From NCBI GenBank assembly GCA_944326735.1, contig CALVFC010000003.1:1-38312 (forward strand): 38,312 nucleotides of DNA, written 5' to 3'. The number at the start of each line of letters is the position of its first letter. The first letter of the stretch is position 1. Position numbers and translations under genes: made by a program. The notes under the pieces were generated by a model that had not been told where the DNA came from, did not search any database, and saw only the letters and a program-made list of their open reading frames with translations. Origin of the DNA: an uncultured Limosilactobacillus sp. (GTDB lineage: Bacteria > Bacillota > Bacilli > Lactobacillales > Lactobacillaceae). Of this stretch, positions 6,758-14,986 are shown piece after piece.

Positions 6758-6811
6758 AAAATACAATTAGAAAATGATTATAAAAACACGTTGACAAGAA
6801 AAGTAATTATC

Positions 6812-7048
6812 GTTTCTTCCGCAGAGAGTCCTTGCGTGGTGAAAAAGGATGAAGCAACGTTAACGAAAATCACTTTGAGTGCCGGGATGAAACAGTAGTA
6901 ATCTTCGGTGGGAGTAGCCCATTACAGCTGCCGTGTTTAATACAGCCGTATTGAACATTGAGGTTAGTAGTGTGAGCTATTAACGAACACAGGGTGGTAA
7001 CACGCAGAAGCGTCCCTCAATTCAGCAATGGATTGAGGGGCGCTTTTT
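6812..7048 (+). promoter_or_regulatory. T-box leader, specifier read as AUC (isoleucine)
   Basis: Stem I closes by GTTTC (6812-6816) with GAAAC (6889-6893), then TTCCG with CGGGA and CAGAG with CTTTG. AGAGAG (6823-6828) is the usual Stem I box. The specifier loop reads CGAAA-ATC-A at 6864-6872, giving codon AUC at 6869-6871 with the conserved A after it. Stem III is 6935-6943 with 6948-6956. The T-box AGGGTGGTAACACG is at 6991-7004; its UGGU would pair with a tRNA ending ACCA, as tRNA-Ile does. The terminator is GCGTCCCTCAAT (7010-7021) with ATTGAGGGGCGC (7032-7043) plus T's. Uncharged tRNA should favour antitermination. Confidence 0.88.
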
Positions 7049-7095
7049 ATAATCATTCAACAATCACTTTAGCAATTAGAGAGGAAGTTTTGATT

Positions 7096-8046
7096 ATGAA
7101 ATTTACTGTAGTTGGTGCAGGTGCCATGGGTCTTCGCTTTGGTGTCTTATTACAAGAAGCTGGTAATGATGTTGATTTTGTCGAAGGCTGGAAGCCTCAT
7201 TATGACAAGATGAAGGAACAAGGTGGCGTCTATGTTACCCGTGAACACAAGAATAAGCACCTCGTTCCCGTTAATGTGTACACGCCGGAAGAATACACCG
7301 CCACAGACGCGGACTTCGTTTTCTTTGAACTGAAGCAAATGCAGATGGACGATATGCTACCACGTTGTGCCCACTTCTTGAAAGACCAGTATTGTCTAAC
7401 TGCGATGAACGGGATGGGACATGTTGAAAAGCTACTTAAGTACTTCCCAAAGGAAAAGCTCGTTGCTGGAACAGCCCTTGTTGCCACAATTTTAACCGCC
7501 GATGGTGAAGTTGAATTCGTCGGTGAACCCGGCATAGGGACCACCAACTGGGCTAATTACACTGAAAAGCCTGACGAAAAGACAAAGGAACTGATGGCTG
7601 CTTTGAAGGAAGCCAACTTTAACCCTTCACTAAAGACTAACTTTATGGGAACACTGATGGCCAAGGTGGTCTTCAATTCCGTCGTAAACACCCTTTGTAC
7701 CATGTTTGAAATCACAATGGGCGAATACGCCAACTTCTCCAAGGCTGACGAATTATCTCGTCAACTCATCGACGAAGCTTACGATGTTTGCGAACGGGCT
7801 GGTGTCCAATTAGTTGGTACCCGCGCTGATGAATTGGAAAGTGTTAACTACGTATCTAAGGTTGGTAACCCCCACCACTACCCATCAATGTACCAGGATA
7901 TGAGTCATAACCGGCCGGTAGAAGTTGACTACATCAATGGTTACCTGGTTAAATTAGGGCGTAAGTACCACTATGAAGCCAAGACTCACAACTTTGTAAC
8001 TAACCTGGTTCACTTAGCGGAAGCTACCCGTGAACACCAAGAATAA
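7096..8046 (+). CDS. panE: PanE/KPR-family 2-ketoacid reductase (ketopantoate reductase or D-2-hydroxyacid dehydrogenase)
   Basis: 316 residues from ATG 7096 with AGAGGAAG 10 bases upstream; reading from farther upstream would run into the T-box terminator. The N-terminal Rossmann domain has VVGAGAMG (5-12) for NAD(P)H. The C-terminal helical domain has the catalytic Lys and Asn residues in AKVVFNSVVN (K190, N194, N198). The family includes true ketopantoate reductases and the Lactococcus enzyme annotated PanE that reduces branched-chain 2-ketoacids to D-hydroxyacids. An isoleucine-type T-box upstream and an aminotransferase downstream favour the latter role: transamination yields the ketoacid, and this enzyme reduces it. 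That is inference from context. Confidence 0.85.
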   Translation: MKFTVVGAGAMGLRFGVLLQEAGNDVDFVEGWKPHYDKMKEQGGVYVTREHKNKHLVPVNVYTPEEYTATDADFVFFELKQMQMDDMLPRCAHFLKDQYCLTAMNGMGHVEKLLKYFPKEKLVAGTALVATILTADGEVEFVGEPGIGTTNWANYTEKPDEKTKELMAALKEANFNPSLKTNFMGTLMAKVVFNSVVNTLCTMFEITMGEYANFSKADELSRQLIDEAYDVCERAGVQLVGTRADELESVNYVSKVGNPHHYPSMYQDMSHNRPVEVDYINGYLVKLGRKYHYEAKTHNFVTNLVHLAEATREHQE

Positions 8047-11077: not shown

Positions 11078-12628
11078 TTAATGTTCAATCTGATTAATAT
11101 ATTCTTTGGCAACCTTCATATCAGTTGGGTAAGGCGTATCAACACCTTTGATCTTTTGATATGGGTCTGCACCCTTACCGGCCAGCACAACGATATCGTT
11201 ATTATCACTGCGGTCAATTGCTTGGCGGATGGCTTTTTGCCGGTCCATTTCAAACTGGACTTCACCAACACGATCATGATCAATATAGGAATCAATTTCG
11301 TGAGCAATCTTCAATGGATCTTCATAACCCGGATCATCCGTAGTTAAAATCACCACATCTGCCCGTGATTCATTCAGGGCTTTACCGAAACCTGGTCGCC
11401 GCGAAATTCCCTTATCACCAGTAGCGCCCAACACAACCGTCACCTTACCAGCATCCGTTTGCCGCTTTAAGAACGCCAACAAACGTTTCAAACTAGCATA
11501 ATTGTGCGCGTAGTCAACGTAGATGGTACCGTGTTGCTTGGTCTTCAACATTTCCATCCGACCTTTAATGTGAACATGGTCGAGCGTCTTAACCGCGTCT
11601 TCTGCCTGCGCACCAGCAAGGCCACTTGCGATGATGGCGGCCACGGCATTTCCTTCATTGTAGTCACCAGGAACACTGGTTAAGTAACGGTGATCAAGGT
11701 GTAATTGTTTTCCCTTATCACTCGTCGCTGTCAGTTCGAATTCACTCTCATGAAGGTCTTCAAGGTCGTTCCGGTATTCAAAATCAACTGTCTGATCATC
11801 CGGCAATGATAGGTCAGCATTATGCCGGGCAAACAAGTAAATATTTTCTGGCTGGGTCGTTGCCTTCGCCGCGTAGTAAACATCTTTAACATGGGCGCTT
11901 TCCGCATTAATGATGCATGTCCGTGAATTGACCATTAACTGCTCTTTACAGTGAAGGTAATCAGCGAATGTCGGGTGTTCGTTGCGTCCAATATGGTCCG
12001 GCGAAATATTCAGAAAGATGCCGACATCATATTTTAATCCATAAACCCGGTTCTTCTTGAATGCTTGTGAGGAAACCTCCATTACTAAATGGGTCATTCC
12101 ATTATTAACTGCCGCCCGCATATCGTGGAACAGGTCCAGTGATTCTGGCGTCGTCAGATCGGATTTGAAACGATCTTCTGGTTTATTTCCCAAAACCCGA
12201 TCCTGCGTTGAGAAAAGAGCACTATGGTGGTTAGTGGATTGGCGAAGAACATTATCGGCAAAGTAAGCTGTGGTCGTCTTTCCTTTAGTCCCCGTAATAC
12301 CAATGATAAATAAATCATTTTGGGGGTAGCCATAAAAGGCCGCCCCGAGCAGTGCCATTGCCTTCTGCTCATCATTGACAATGATTGCTGGCAGTCCTTG
12401 TCCCTCTGGATATTCTTGCTCAGCAACGTAGGCAATTGCCCCGTGCTGCTTAGCAGATGCCAGGTAAGCCGGCTGGAAATTACCCTTACAGAAAAAGAGT
12501 GTCCCTTTTTTCACCTTTCGTGAATCATAGGAAACACTGGTTGCTGTAAAATCTGTTAAGTTGCTAACGTGATCTAGTAAATGGTGTTCTCTTAATAACG
12601 TAAGTGCAGGTGTAACATGCAGTTCCAT
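11078..12628 (-). CDS. murE: UDP-MurNAc-tripeptide synthetase (MurE)
   Basis: 516-residue cytoplasmic Mur ligase adding the third amino acid to UDP-MurNAc-L-Ala-D-Glu. The N-terminal UDP-binding domain (about 1-105) precedes the ATP-binding loop TGTKGKTTT (112-120). The likely carbamylated Lys is K228 (HCKEQLM), and the C-terminal domain starts near 350 (IKGRMEML). The amino-acid selector is DDPGYEDP (431-438). Enzymes adding meso-diaminopimelate have DNPR here, so the missing Arg points to a neutral-side-chain diamino acid such as L-lysine or L-ornithine; I cannot choose between them. It starts with ATG and a modest purine-rich site (AGAGGGG). lepB follows in the same operon. Confidence 0.93.
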   Translation of the reverse strand: MELHVTPALTLLREHHLLDHVSNLTDFTATSVSYDSRKVKKGTLFFCKGNFQPAYLASAKQHGAIAYVAEQEYPEGQGLPAIIVNDEQKAMALLGAAFYGYPQNDLFIIGITGTKGKTTTAYFADNVLRQSTNHHSALFSTQDRVLGNKPEDRFKSDLTTPESLDLFHDMRAAVNNGMTHLVMEVSSQAFKKNRVYGLKYDVGIFLNISPDHIGRNEHPTFADYLHCKEQLMVNSRTCIINAESAHVKDVYYAAKATTQPENIYLFARHNADLSLPDDQTVDFEYRNDLEDLHESEFELTATSDKGKQLHLDHRYLTSVPGDYNEGNAVAAIIASGLAGAQAEDAVKTLDHVHIKGRMEMLKTKQHGTIYVDYAHNYASLKRLLAFLKRQTDAGKVTVVLGATGDKGISRRPGFGKALNESRADVVILTTDDPGYEDPLKIAHEIDSYIDHDRVGEVQFEMDRQKAIRQAIDRSDNNDIVVLAGKGADPYQKIKGVDTPYPTDMKVAKEYINQIEH

Positions 12629-12728
12629 TCTGTCACTGACCCCTCTTATCTTTCTATCTAAAGCTATATTATTTCATTTTTTCTCGTAAATGTGAATATA
12701 TCATATTGAATCATAACAAATTTATCAT

Positions 12729-12742
12729 ATTTCCCGGGGAAT
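12729..12742. other. Noc-binding-site-like palindrome (13/14)
   Basis: ATTTCCCGGGGAAT differs at one base from the nucleoid-occlusion protein site ATTTCCCGGGAAAT. It lies right beside the terminator of the micropeptide transcript. Confidence 0.5.
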
Positions 12743-12782
12743 AAAAAATCCCAGTGAATGCTCGAGCCATTCACTGGGATTT
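12743..12782 (-). terminator. Terminator of the micropeptide transcript
   Basis: Perfect 15-bp stem AAATCCCAGTGAATG (12746-12760) with CATTCACTGGGATTT (12768-12782) and loop CTCGAGC. On the (-) strand it runs into a six-T tract (12748-12743). Transcription from the CRE promoter would give an RNA of roughly 230 bases. Confidence 0.88.
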
Positions 12783-12825
12783 ATTCAATTATTTATATGA
12801 TGACTGTCTGGCTTTTATTAGTAAG

Positions 12826-12873
12826 CTAATCGCCTATAAACTTACCTTCAACATTCGTAACATCTAAGCCCAT
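12826..12873 (-). CDS. Micro-ORF B: 15-residue acidic peptide (unrecognised)
   Basis: Reads MGLDVTNVEGKFIGD and stop. AGCGGAGT lies 7 bases upstream of the ATG, a good ribosome site. It is the second of two micro-ORFs on one short RNA running from the CRE promoter (12985-13013) to a strong terminator (12743-12782). The peptide has net negative charge and no hydrophobic stretch, so it is not an obvious membrane toxin. I do not know the family. The coding claim rests on the ribosome site and the dedicated transcription unit. Confidence 0.45.
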   Translation of the reverse strand: MGLDVTNVEGKFIGD

Positions 12874-12912
12874 TGGTATCACTCCGCTCTTTCAAACCTA
12901 AGCAACGGACAT

Positions 12913-12942
12913 TTACCTTACTGCTCGAATCATCTTTACCAT
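12913..12942 (-). CDS. Micro-ORF A: 9-residue basic peptide (unrecognised)
   Basis: Reads MVKMIRAVR and stop, with GTGAGGTG 7-8 bases upstream of the ATG. It is the first micro-ORF on the CRE-controlled short transcript and 39 bases ahead of micro-ORF B. It is net positively charged, opposite to B. It could be a leader peptide setting translation of B, one half of a two-peptide pair, or non-functional. No relatives are known to me. Confidence 0.4.
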   Translation of the reverse strand: MVKMIRAVR

Positions 12943-12984
12943 TGTAATCACCTCACTGGTCATTACCTATCTTTCTACACTTAT

Positions 12985-13013
12985 ATTATAGCACGTCTTG
13001 TTAGCGCTTACAA
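12985..13013 (-). promoter_or_regulatory. Strong promoter with embedded CRE (CcpA) operator
   Basis: On the (-) strand: TTGTAA (13013-13008), a 17-base spacer and a perfect TATAAT (12990-12985). Overlapping the -35 and spacer is TTGTTAGCGCTTACAA (12998-13013, plus-strand reading), which fits every position of the catabolite-response consensus WTGNNARCGNWWWCAW on both strands. An operator placed here should let CcpA repress transcription when preferred sugars are present. Confidence 0.82.
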
Positions 13014-13028
13014 CTACTGAATAAAGAA

Positions 13029-13061
13029 AAGCTGTGGTGCTTGTTATCAGCATCACAGCTT
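13029..13061 (-). terminator. Terminator of the AsnB-family gene
   Basis: AAGCTGTGGTGC (13029-13040) pairs with GCATCACAGCTT (13050-13061), followed on the (-) strand by TTTTCTTTATT. It isolates the amidotransferase gene from the micropeptide promoter just downstream. Confidence 0.82.
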
Positions 13062-13066
13062 AACTA

Positions 13067-14986
13067 TTAGTCTTCAGTGACCGCCTGTTTGGCGTGGTCG
13101 ATCCCACTTTCATCAAGCTTAAAGTGGTCAATGAAGTATAACTTGTACCATACCAGGAAGGTGTATACTGTCCAGATCTTCCGTCGACCATCGATCTTAC
13201 CGTTAAAGTTGTCATCAGCCAGCTTCAATAGCTTGTCTTGGTCAAAGAACTGGTTTACAAAGTCTTGTTCAAACATTTCACGAACGACCTTGTAGTACTT
13301 CTTCTCACGTAACCATTCCCGGACAGGGGTTGGGAACCCAAGCTTAGGACGGGTTGCCCATTCCTCAGGGAGGTGACGGTTAGCCGCCATCCGGAATGCC
13401 CACTTAGTTCCCTTATAGTTAAAGAGGTAGTTAGTTGGTGTTGTTTCAGCGACCTTCATAACTTCTTTATCCAATAATGGAACCCGGATTTCAACGGAGT
13501 TTGCCATACTCATCTTATCGGCCTTCAAGCAAATATCACCAGGCATGAACCGGTGTAAATCCACGTATTGCTTCTTAGCAACTTCGTTCATGTCCTTCTT
13601 TTCGTCGCACTTATCGTAAAGCGGCTTCAGTAAGTCGGTGATTGATGGGCCATCTTGATATTCTGGCTTCAGGTATTCGTTAGCTTCCGTTGGACTGAAA
13701 ATATAGGCTTGACCAATAAAGGTATCCCGAGCTGGTGCAAGGTTCCGGTAGAGGTGTTCTGAACCGTGGAACTGCTTTCCTTCCAGCCACTTACCAAGCT
13801 TGTAACGTTTTTCCTTTGGTAACTTCTTTAACTGATCAGTTACCCACCGCAAGAACTTAATCTTGGTGTTGAAACCATATGCAGTGTAGCCAGCGAACAA
13901 TTCATCGGCCCCTTCACCTGATAGGAGGGCCTTGTAGCCATTGTCCTTAGCCAACTTGTTTAAGAAGTACAAAGGCACAACGGATGGATTAGAGTCTGGT
14001 TCATCCAGGTAGTACTGGATCAGTGGAAACTTACTAAAGGCTTCCTCATCCGTTAACAACTTATCAGTGTTCTTAAGCTTCAACTTAGCAGCTAATTCAC
14101 GGGCCTGCTTGGTTTCGTCGTAACCACTATCAAACCCAATTGAGAAGGTGTTGTTAGGCCGCATCAATGCTGTTACCAGACTGGAGTCAACCCCGGCAGA
14201 TAAGAACGAACCAACTTTGATTCCCTTATCAGCAAAGGTGTGGGCTTTAACTGAATTCTTAACAACATCATCAATGTTATCAACCGCTTGATCAAAGGTT
14301 TCTTGCTTGGGATCGAAGTCCTCATCCCAGTACTGTTTCATTTCAAACTTACCATCTTTGTAAGTAAAGTAATGAGCTTCTGGCAGACGATATACCCCCT
14401 TAAAGAAGGTTTCCTGGGTCACGTTATATTGGAATGTCATGTAAGATTTCAATGCCCGTTTGTTGAGTTCCATCTTAAAGTTCGGGTGGTCTAAGAAGGC
14501 CTTGATTTCAGACCCCACAAAGAAGGTCCCGTTCATCTTGGCATAGTACAATGGCTTAATGCCAAAGTGGTCACGGGCCCCAAACATTTCGTGGGTCTTC
14601 AAATCCCAGATAATGAAGCCGAACATCCCGCGGAGCTTGTTAACAACGTCCTTACCCCATTGTTCGTACCCATGTAGGATAACCTCCGTATCAGCATGGG
14701 TCTTAAAGGTATGACCGTCTTTGATTAATTCCTCGCGCAGCTCTTCGAAGTTATAAATTTCACCATTAAATTCAATGGCCTTAGAGTTATTTTCGTTAAA
14801 GATGGGCTGATTTCCAGACTTAAGATCCACAAAACCTAACCGCCGAAATCCCAACGCAACGTGTTCATCAACATATTGCCCTTCAGCGTCCGGGCCACGG
14901 TGGATAATCCGTTCCTTCATTTTCTTGATCAGACTATCCTTAATCTGTGGCTTTTCGTTATCTACAAATGCAACAATTCCACACAT
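13067..14986 (-). CDS. asnB: AsnB-family glutamine-dependent amidotransferase (asparagine synthase or peptidoglycan amidase)
   Basis: 639 residues starting MCGIVAF, so the N-terminal Cys2 glutaminase nucleophile is exposed after Met removal. Glutaminase motifs RGPDAEG, FNGEIYNF and HADTEVILHGYEQWG fill about 1-210. The synthetase domain has the PP-loop FLSAGVDSSLVTAL (about 258-271), LSGEGADELFAGY and the VEIRVPLLD block. Its length matches the long branch (B. subtilis AsnB, L. plantarum AsnB1, L. lactis AsnH) rather than the 554-residue E. coli asparagine synthetase. Several long-branch members amidate cell-wall residues. Proximity to murE, and a MurE not of the DAP type, makes amidation of a D-Asp cross-bridge possible; free asparagine synthesis is the alternative. 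The ribosome site is TAGGAG. Confidence 0.88.
   Translation of the reverse strand: MCGIVAFVDNEKPQIKDSLIKKMKERIIHRGPDAEGQYVDEHVALGFRRLGFVDLKSGNQPIFNENNSKAIEFNGEIYNFEELREELIKDGHTFKTHADTEVILHGYEQWGKDVVNKLRGMFGFIIWDLKTHEMFGARDHFGIKPLYYAKMNGTFFVGSEIKAFLDHPNFKMELNKRALKSYMTFQYNVTQETFFKGVYRLPEAHYFTYKDGKFEMKQYWDEDFDPKQETFDQAVDNIDDVVKNSVKAHTFADKGIKVGSFLSAGVDSSLVTALMRPNNTFSIGFDSGYDETKQARELAAKLKLKNTDKLLTDEEAFSKFPLIQYYLDEPDSNPSVVPLYFLNKLAKDNGYKALLSGEGADELFAGYTAYGFNTKIKFLRWVTDQLKKLPKEKRYKLGKWLEGKQFHGSEHLYRNLAPARDTFIGQAYIFSPTEANEYLKPEYQDGPSITDLLKPLYDKCDEKKDMNEVAKKQYVDLHRFMPGDICLKADKMSMANSVEIRVPLLDKEVMKVAETTPTNYLFNYKGTKWAFRMAANRHLPEEWATRPKLGFPTPVREWLREKKYYKVVREMFEQDFVNQFFDQDKLLKLADDNFNGKIDGRRKIWTVYTFLVWYKLYFIDHFKLDESGIDHAKQAVTED

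Follow-up and report, generated by a model that had tools for sequence, protein, structure and literature searches.

The RNA SR1 is under sugar control by CcpN and CcpA, and SR1P, the protein it encodes, has 39 residues. Lambda bar is a regulatory minigene, and rli28-type RNAs are taken for type I toxin mRNAs. In the available portions of two accounts (PMC8501984, PMC8152036), SR1/SR1P of Bacillus subtilis is presented as a free-standing, dual-function small RNA that encodes a small protein. LipR of Bacillus thuringiensis, as described in an excerpt of PMC10989752, is a CcpA-linked, dual-function small RNA of a Gram-positive bacterium. Further regulatory minigenes, namely mg2 of axe-txe, the LEE1 and LEE4 leaders, and ycbK, appear in an excerpt of PMC8708949, in which ribosome occupancy of minigene leaders is reported or proposed to protect the RNA in cis. 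Copies of rli28 occur in L. casei Zhang, according to part of PMC8249650.

Here, we examined a locus within a stretch of 38,312 nucleotides from an uncultured Limosilactobacillus sp. (the whole stretch analyzed is referred to as the window). In the best reading of its sequence, the locus would be a one-unit member of a family of free-standing RNAs common to two genera of lactobacilli. The family is apparently undescribed so far. An earlier note on this DNA likewise knew of no described family, and Rfam, at gathering and relaxed thresholds, gave nothing significant either for the locus or in a scan of 16 relatives. Among titles and abstract openings in the open-access literature, there was no match for the peptide or for CcpA-controlled small RNAs of lactobacilli, nor any among L. 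reuteri small-RNA RNA-seq studies, nagA-linked small RNAs, small RNAs with multiple small ORFs, or dual-function small RNAs.

Architecture of the locus

The RNA unit lies on the (-) strand in the gap between asnB (which ends at 13067) and murE (which starts at 12628), and it consists of a promoter, a perfect catabolite-responsive element (CRE) over the -35 box, two micro-ORFs, and a terminator with a 15-pair stem. The promoter, TTGTAA-17-TATAAT (12985..13013, - strand), has its -35 hexamer TTGTAA at 13013-13008 and, after a 17-nt spacer, its -10 hexamer TATAAT at 12990-12985, preceded by TG. The CRE, TGTAAGCGCTAACA (12999..13012, -), overlaps the -35 hexamer, so that the consensus promoter overlapped by a perfect CRE that had been noted earlier (13013-12985 and 13012-12999, respectively) was found as described. 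Promoter and terminator together predict a transcript of about 240 nt (12740..12978, -; ends approximate), and the layout of a short (-) strand RNA with two micro-ORFs and a 15-pair terminator was confirmed. Micro-ORF 1 (12913..12942, -) encodes MVKMIRAVR and is preceded by the Shine-Dalgarno (SD) sequence GAGGTGAT (12947..12954, -). Micro-ORF 2 (12826..12873, -) encodes MGLDVTNVEGKFIGD; its SD sequence, GGAGTGAT (12885-12878, -), overlaps motif B, GTGATACCAATGGGC (12868..12882, -), which comprises a ribosome site and AUG GGC. The stem of the intrinsic terminator (12746..12782, -) is followed by a T-rich tail.

Taken alone, the scans for promoters and terminators are near chance: positions 12000-14000 contain 5 promoter-like matches against 3.8 expected and 3 terminator-like matches against 1.5 expected. 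The case for the RNA unit rests on conservation, not on these scans. The predicted RNA fold is more stable than those of shuffled sequences (z -4.2), to which the terminator hairpin is probably the main contributor. The locus had also been described as insulated by the terminator of asnB; an inverted repeat is visible by eye behind this gene (~13024-13064), but the terminator scan gave no entry for it.

The Rfam scan of the window returned a T-box and a tRNA, both away from the RNA locus. The T-box leader (RF00230, 102.6 bits; 6782-7020, + strand) overlaps the start of an ORF at 6994-8046. For the locus itself, the best Rfam match was the covariance model of rli28 (RF01492), at 23.8 bits (E 0.33) over ribosome-site-plus-AUG stretches, which raises the idea that the RNA is a relic or a relative of rli28-type RNAs. 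This idea is barely credible, given a score far under the gathering score of 45 and no match with an E value of 1 or less in the relatives L025, L046, L048, L049, and L050. From the L. casei knockout target, in the part of PMC8249650 that covers it, we took a downstream holin-like toxin ORF as a further mark of rli28. Among ORFs of at least 60 aa, no such downstream toxin ORF was found, and in the window's ORF list none of that length overlaps the transcript. With the model match weak and below threshold and with no longer ORF, rli28 was set aside.

Conservation of the CRE and promoter

The CRE consensus of CcpA is TGWAANCGNTNWCA. Within the 38-kb window, TGTAAGCGCTAACA is the sole perfect match to it, where 0.12 are expected; one or more perfect matches occurred in 10 of 100 shuffles. 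Across relatives, a CRE with zero to two mismatches occupies a fixed place at the promoter in all 29 loci (12 perfect, 11 with one mismatch, and 6 with two), as would be seen in a CcpA regulon. In the Limosilactobacillus-type loci that were read, the promoter is present in 13/13, and the CRE, with at most one mismatch, starts 22 nt before the -10 hexamer in each of them. In the second genus, it starts 31 to 33 nt before the -10 hexamer (16/16 loci). The offset between the genera, ~10 bp, is about one helical turn, which suggests that the CRE moved while keeping its helical phase. The RNA gene is probably repressed by CcpA, as the position of the site suggests. Together with conserved micro-ORF starts, the conserved CRE bears out the compact free-standing unit envisaged in the earlier note.

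Distribution and neighborhoods

An AsnB scan yielded 21 loci, whose titles give Limosilactobacillus, Lactobacillus, or Lactobacillaceae; the closest AsnB among them was that of L. frumenti (98%). The element is present in 6 (L001-L004, L018, and L019) of the 17 asnB flanks examined among these 21, some of which stop shortly after asnB. A sequence model built from 12 loci identified carriers in 12 of 50 Limosilactobacillus genomes, each with a best match of 1.8e-31 or better, and a clear gap separates them from the best match in any noncarrier genome of the genus (6.2e-6). In a second genus, reading by eye identified carriers with a diverged layout in no fewer than 16 of 75 genomes (L143 and 15 further loci; the weakest matches there were only partly read). 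The second genus is probably Lactobacillus, as judged from the sequence of its ntd gene, because by eye this shares ~80% identity with PDB 1f8x, which we take to be the L. leichmannii enzyme.

The element occupies at least four neighborhoods. In Limosilactobacillus, it lies after asnB, after rplA (L048-L050), in a third place (L025 and L047), and in a fourth (L046); in the second genus, it often lies between nagA and a convergent ntd. Because the context differs between loci, no neighboring gene is a constant cis target. In the window, the next same-strand gene is murE, and micro-ORFs followed by a terminator ahead of it have the layout of a leader peptide; the RNA might then act in cis as a leader or attenuator of this gene. 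Such a role is very improbable and was rejected on the differing contexts: elsewhere convergent genes (in the place after rplA in L048-L050; ntd in the place after nagA) or another gene follow, and in the window itself a promoter-like site (12696-12668) lies between the terminator and murE.

With E values of at most 0.1, a family-wide search with model R1 matched 268 of 396 genomes, and most of these matches are apparently CRE promoters only. Seventeen weaker R1 loci were read, of which L069 and L084 are members and the other 15 are without motif B by eye. An order-level search of 395 genomes with model R2 gave three matches, two of them members and one a CRE before another gene; R2 missed a known Limosilactobacillus member (G001), so that absence beyond the two genera is weakly tested. 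The element had no match in the plasmid and phage collections.

Other CRE-driven stretches were seen along the way. In four other Lactobacillaceae genomes (L071, L075, L076, and L091; ~1480-2000, match strand), a CRE-like promoter precedes a stretch that by eye has no long ORF and many short repeats (e.g., AAG-ACCA and AAGTATCAGAATCA), possibly another catabolite-controlled noncoding RNA. A second CRE-driven stretch (L077, L078, and L089; ~1480-2000, match strand), also without a long ORF by eye, shares CATATGGGCGTGTTACAGTAATGAAAC... between L078 and L089 and is a possible structured RNA. At L068 (~1580-1740, +), a CRE promoter precedes an ORF for a membrane microprotein that starts MLAAMNIASVSFIVLIVVVLLGVV (translated by eye).

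Micro-ORF 1 and tandem arrays

Micro-ORF 1 contains motif A, GATGATTCGAGCAGTAA, which was seen only in Limosilactobacillus. Its peptide has the family form MxKMIRAVx or MxRMIRAVx, and its stop follows after 9 or 10 codons. In 21 copies from 11 loci (a set that omits the near-duplicate loci L002 and L004), codons 4, 7, and 8 are invariant, and codons 5 and 6 show only synonymous change (ATT/ATA and CGA/CGG/CGC). Of the conservation proposed as a check in the earlier note, both ribosome sites and peptide 1 are kept in relatives and peptide 2 is not; as for the synonymous change sought in both frames, all changes within MIRAV of peptide 1 are synonymous across the 21 copies, but the sequence of peptide 2 varies.

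The SD sequence of micro-ORF 1 is conserved and would form a strong duplex with the 16S rRNA tail (-15.1 kcal/mol). When the 16 nt that precede the start are ranked against 1,749 predicted starts in 2.0 Mb of the related genome G044, site 1 falls within the strongest 7% and site 2 within the strongest 30%. These ranks are conservative because the reference starts, which came from a simple script favoring strong sites, were partly selected by SD strength. Of the two ribosome sites that had been called good, site 1 is good and site 2 is ordinary.

Motif B is present in one to four copies per RNA, and motif A in one to four copies in other loci; in L025 and L047, a single A accompanies two copies of B. 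Relative to the L. frumenti array, the window lacks exactly one A-B unit, and the missing block starts within one motif B and ends at the equivalent position in the following one. Judged by these breakpoints, the array in the window has contracted in the manner expected of recombination between repeats. A one-base difference plus substitutions separates MGLDVTNVEGKFIGD in the window from MGLEVDEC-stop in L. frumenti, and the second ORF of the window, at 15 codons, is the longest among 38 distinct ones. The suggestion of a two-peptide signal, one basic and one acidic, found no support in this comparison, since the acidic peptide is unconserved even in the closest relative, its frame being off by one base.

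A gene for a micropeptide, with MxKMIRAVx as the active product (a signal or a ribosome-acting peptide) and tandem units that raise the dose, would fit the retention of MIRAV in 21/21 copies with only synonymous change, the rank of site 1 in the window among the strongest 7%, and the occurrence of up to four copies per RNA. We nevertheless hold it to be improbable. MxKMIRAVx is in none of the 16 second-genus members read, although the RNA is kept there, and the synonymous changes in MIRAV trace to only ~3 independent events (by eye), so that conservation at the RNA level could account for them.

Motif B and early stops

Motif B is conserved in both genera. The exact 15-mer GTGATACCAATGGGC occurs in 5 of 396 genomes of the family, and all five places are members; the reversed control gave none. 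With the degenerate pattern GTGATWCCRATGGGY, 18 of 396 genomes gave 19 places, of which 8 belong to members and 11 do not; its reversed control gave 8 places. The 3' tail of 16S rRNA reads GGATCACCTCCTTTCT in the two genomes looked at, and motif B is largely complementary to it; the pairing stretches are GAGGTGAT-N-CC, GGAGTGATACC, and GAAAGG...GTGATACC. When the full upstream stretch is paired with the tail, 16 of the 17 tested motif copies reach -9.6 to -16.7 kcal/mol and one reaches -5.7; the weak single sites are A2 of L003 (-5.7 kcal/mol) and B2 of L025 (-9.6 kcal/mol).

The ORFs that follow motif B (56 copies in 29 loci, 38 of them distinct) are 2 to 15 codons long. Among the distinct copies, 36 of 38 stop within nine codons; the two alternative frames give 24 and 20, and their longest ORFs reach 28 and 37 codons. 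When the copies are grouped into 35 clusters, 2 exceed nine codons versus 12 and 17 in the other frames (Mann-Whitney, P ~ 0.011, with independence overstated as copies share descent). Because of this shared ancestry, the statistics are support and not proof. Stops are also exchanged for other stops at the same place (GGCTGA/GGCTAA/GGCTAG, CACTTGA/CACTTAA, and AAATTGA/AAATTAA). Across loci, peptide 2 is mostly MG plus a variable tail of 0 to 11 residues (MG, MT, MGI, MGT, MGY, MGIVN, MGCENS, MGFELIGH, and others). Because the peptide varies in this way, the second element has the appearance of a motif for ribosome entry that is soon followed by a stop, and not that of a peptide gene. In most copies of motif B, GGC follows AUG, and ribosome binding leaves this GGC unexplained. 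In the second genus, L110, L113, and L143 each carry only one motif B, which directly follows the promoter; motif B is therefore the smallest common core. In another genome, L139 (~1490-1600, +) has a minigene-like start, GGGAGGTGATTCCGATGGGCTCC, without a CRE; it is possibly an unrelated strong ribosome site.

Third micro-ORF and RNA structure

All 15 second-genus loci extending far enough contain a third micro-ORF, which has 7 or 8 codons and ends in the first TGA of the terminator. Its peptides begin with M[IT]N in 10/15 loci and end in KK in 10/15, counts that lack control frames and come from an A-rich stretch favoring such residues. Downstream of the arrays in L049 and L050, we saw by eye MIKETEIKKRS-stop before the terminator, which resembles the third micro-ORF of the second genus, and in L003 and L018 a short ORF ending inside the terminator stem. 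No comparable further short ORF was seen by eye in the window.

In the second-genus consensus fold (that of alignment A2), 9 of 26 pairs change on both sides, three in a hairpin and six in the terminator. An outer stem, with arms that differ yet match, is present in 10 of the 13 loci searched. The consensus fold also pairs GUGAU of motif B with the distal arm of the outer stem; as modeled, the outer stem and the GUGAU pairing are alternatives. In several second-genus members, the minimum free energy (MFE) structures place part of motif B in a stem. The MFE stem and the GUGAU pairing would hide motif B and therefore count against ribosome entry. The consensus fold of the Limosilactobacillus alignment A1 has 12 pairs, none changed on both sides, and so gives no structural support.

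Base-pairing is the commonest mode of action of small RNAs. The locus may accordingly encode an ordinary trans-acting, base-pairing small RNA under CcpA, with motif B (and, in Limosilactobacillus, motif A too) as the seed and with micro-ORFs that are incidental or merely stabilize the RNA. Conservation of the motif B sequence across genera is compatible with this alternative, as are the covarying hairpin (3 pairs) and outer stem (10/13 loci) of the second genus, features found in structured small RNAs. We regard it as possible but tentative, because no clear target emerged among the 1,749 predicted gene starts in 2.0 Mb of G044, one partial genome. There, with energies that have no accessibility term, the best target of motif B scored -20.9 versus shuffle bests of -18.4 to -22.9, that of the motif B core -13.5, with all 12 shuffles better, and that of the terminator stretch -18.2 versus -16.3 to -19.9; motif A reached -22.1 versus -21.7 for the best of 12 shuffles. 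A base-pairing small RNA would also leave the early stops, the stop-for-stop swaps, and the frame of the third micro-ORF unexplained.

Discussion

The reading that we prefer, and to which we assign an even chance, is that of a stand-alone, CcpA-repressed RNA whose action depends on ribosomes entering at tandem micro-ORFs; we infer from the sequence that the RNA is transcribed and translated and that CcpA binds the CRE. CcpA would bind the CRE over the -35 box, as the position of the site implies, and shut off transcription with a preferred sugar present. Once the sugar is exhausted, the ~240-nt RNA would be made. Ribosomes would enter at the repeated start sites paired to the 16S 3' tail, read a few codons, and terminate, a step proposed because sites, start codons, and early stops are conserved. 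Repeated short engagement, the most likely route of the conserved function, could keep the RNA ribosome bound and stable, and the number of tandem units might set the dose. In Limosilactobacillus, the RNA would also yield the conserved peptide MxKMIRAVx of 9 or 10 residues. Candidate outputs of such engagement are the tying up of ribosomes or tRNA, stabilization of an RNA with other partners, and delivery of the peptide.

A more specific conjecture is a catabolite-controlled ribosome decoy, made on sugar exhaustion, in which a conserved series of ribosome landing sites with start-stop genes would tie up ribosomes (or else initiator or glycyl tRNA) in futile short rounds. It is doubtful, but, if true, would be a new way to throttle translation at starvation, with a dose set by the tandem units. 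Genes of 2 to 15 codons escape annotation, and here they are repeated, are found as a unit in differing neighborhoods, and are kept in two genera of lactobacilli under a conserved site for sugar control. If expressed as predicted, the RNA would offer a simple system in which to study the role of free-standing minigenes.

Among the described systems, the resemblance to rli28 is a weak alignment across two ribosome-site-plus-AUG stretches, and the likeness to LipR is drawn from the excerpted description of that RNA and not from its sequence. With SR1/SR1P, as far as the consulted portions of its accounts describe it, the locus shares a free-standing RNA with small coding capacity; unlike there, the ORFs are only 2 to 15 codons long and in tandem, with no clear mRNA target in one partial genome. 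The locus and its relatives also resemble minigenes as characterized in the excerpt of PMC8708949, since a strong ribosome site, an AUG, one to a few codons, and a stop are found together, with signs of selection, the statistics for which are limited by common descent. The minigenes of that excerpt act in cis on a downstream gene. At our loci, different genes lie downstream, and in the rplA and nagA-ntd contexts the downstream gene is convergent; unlike those leaders, the RNA ends at its own terminator, and its minigenes are repeated.
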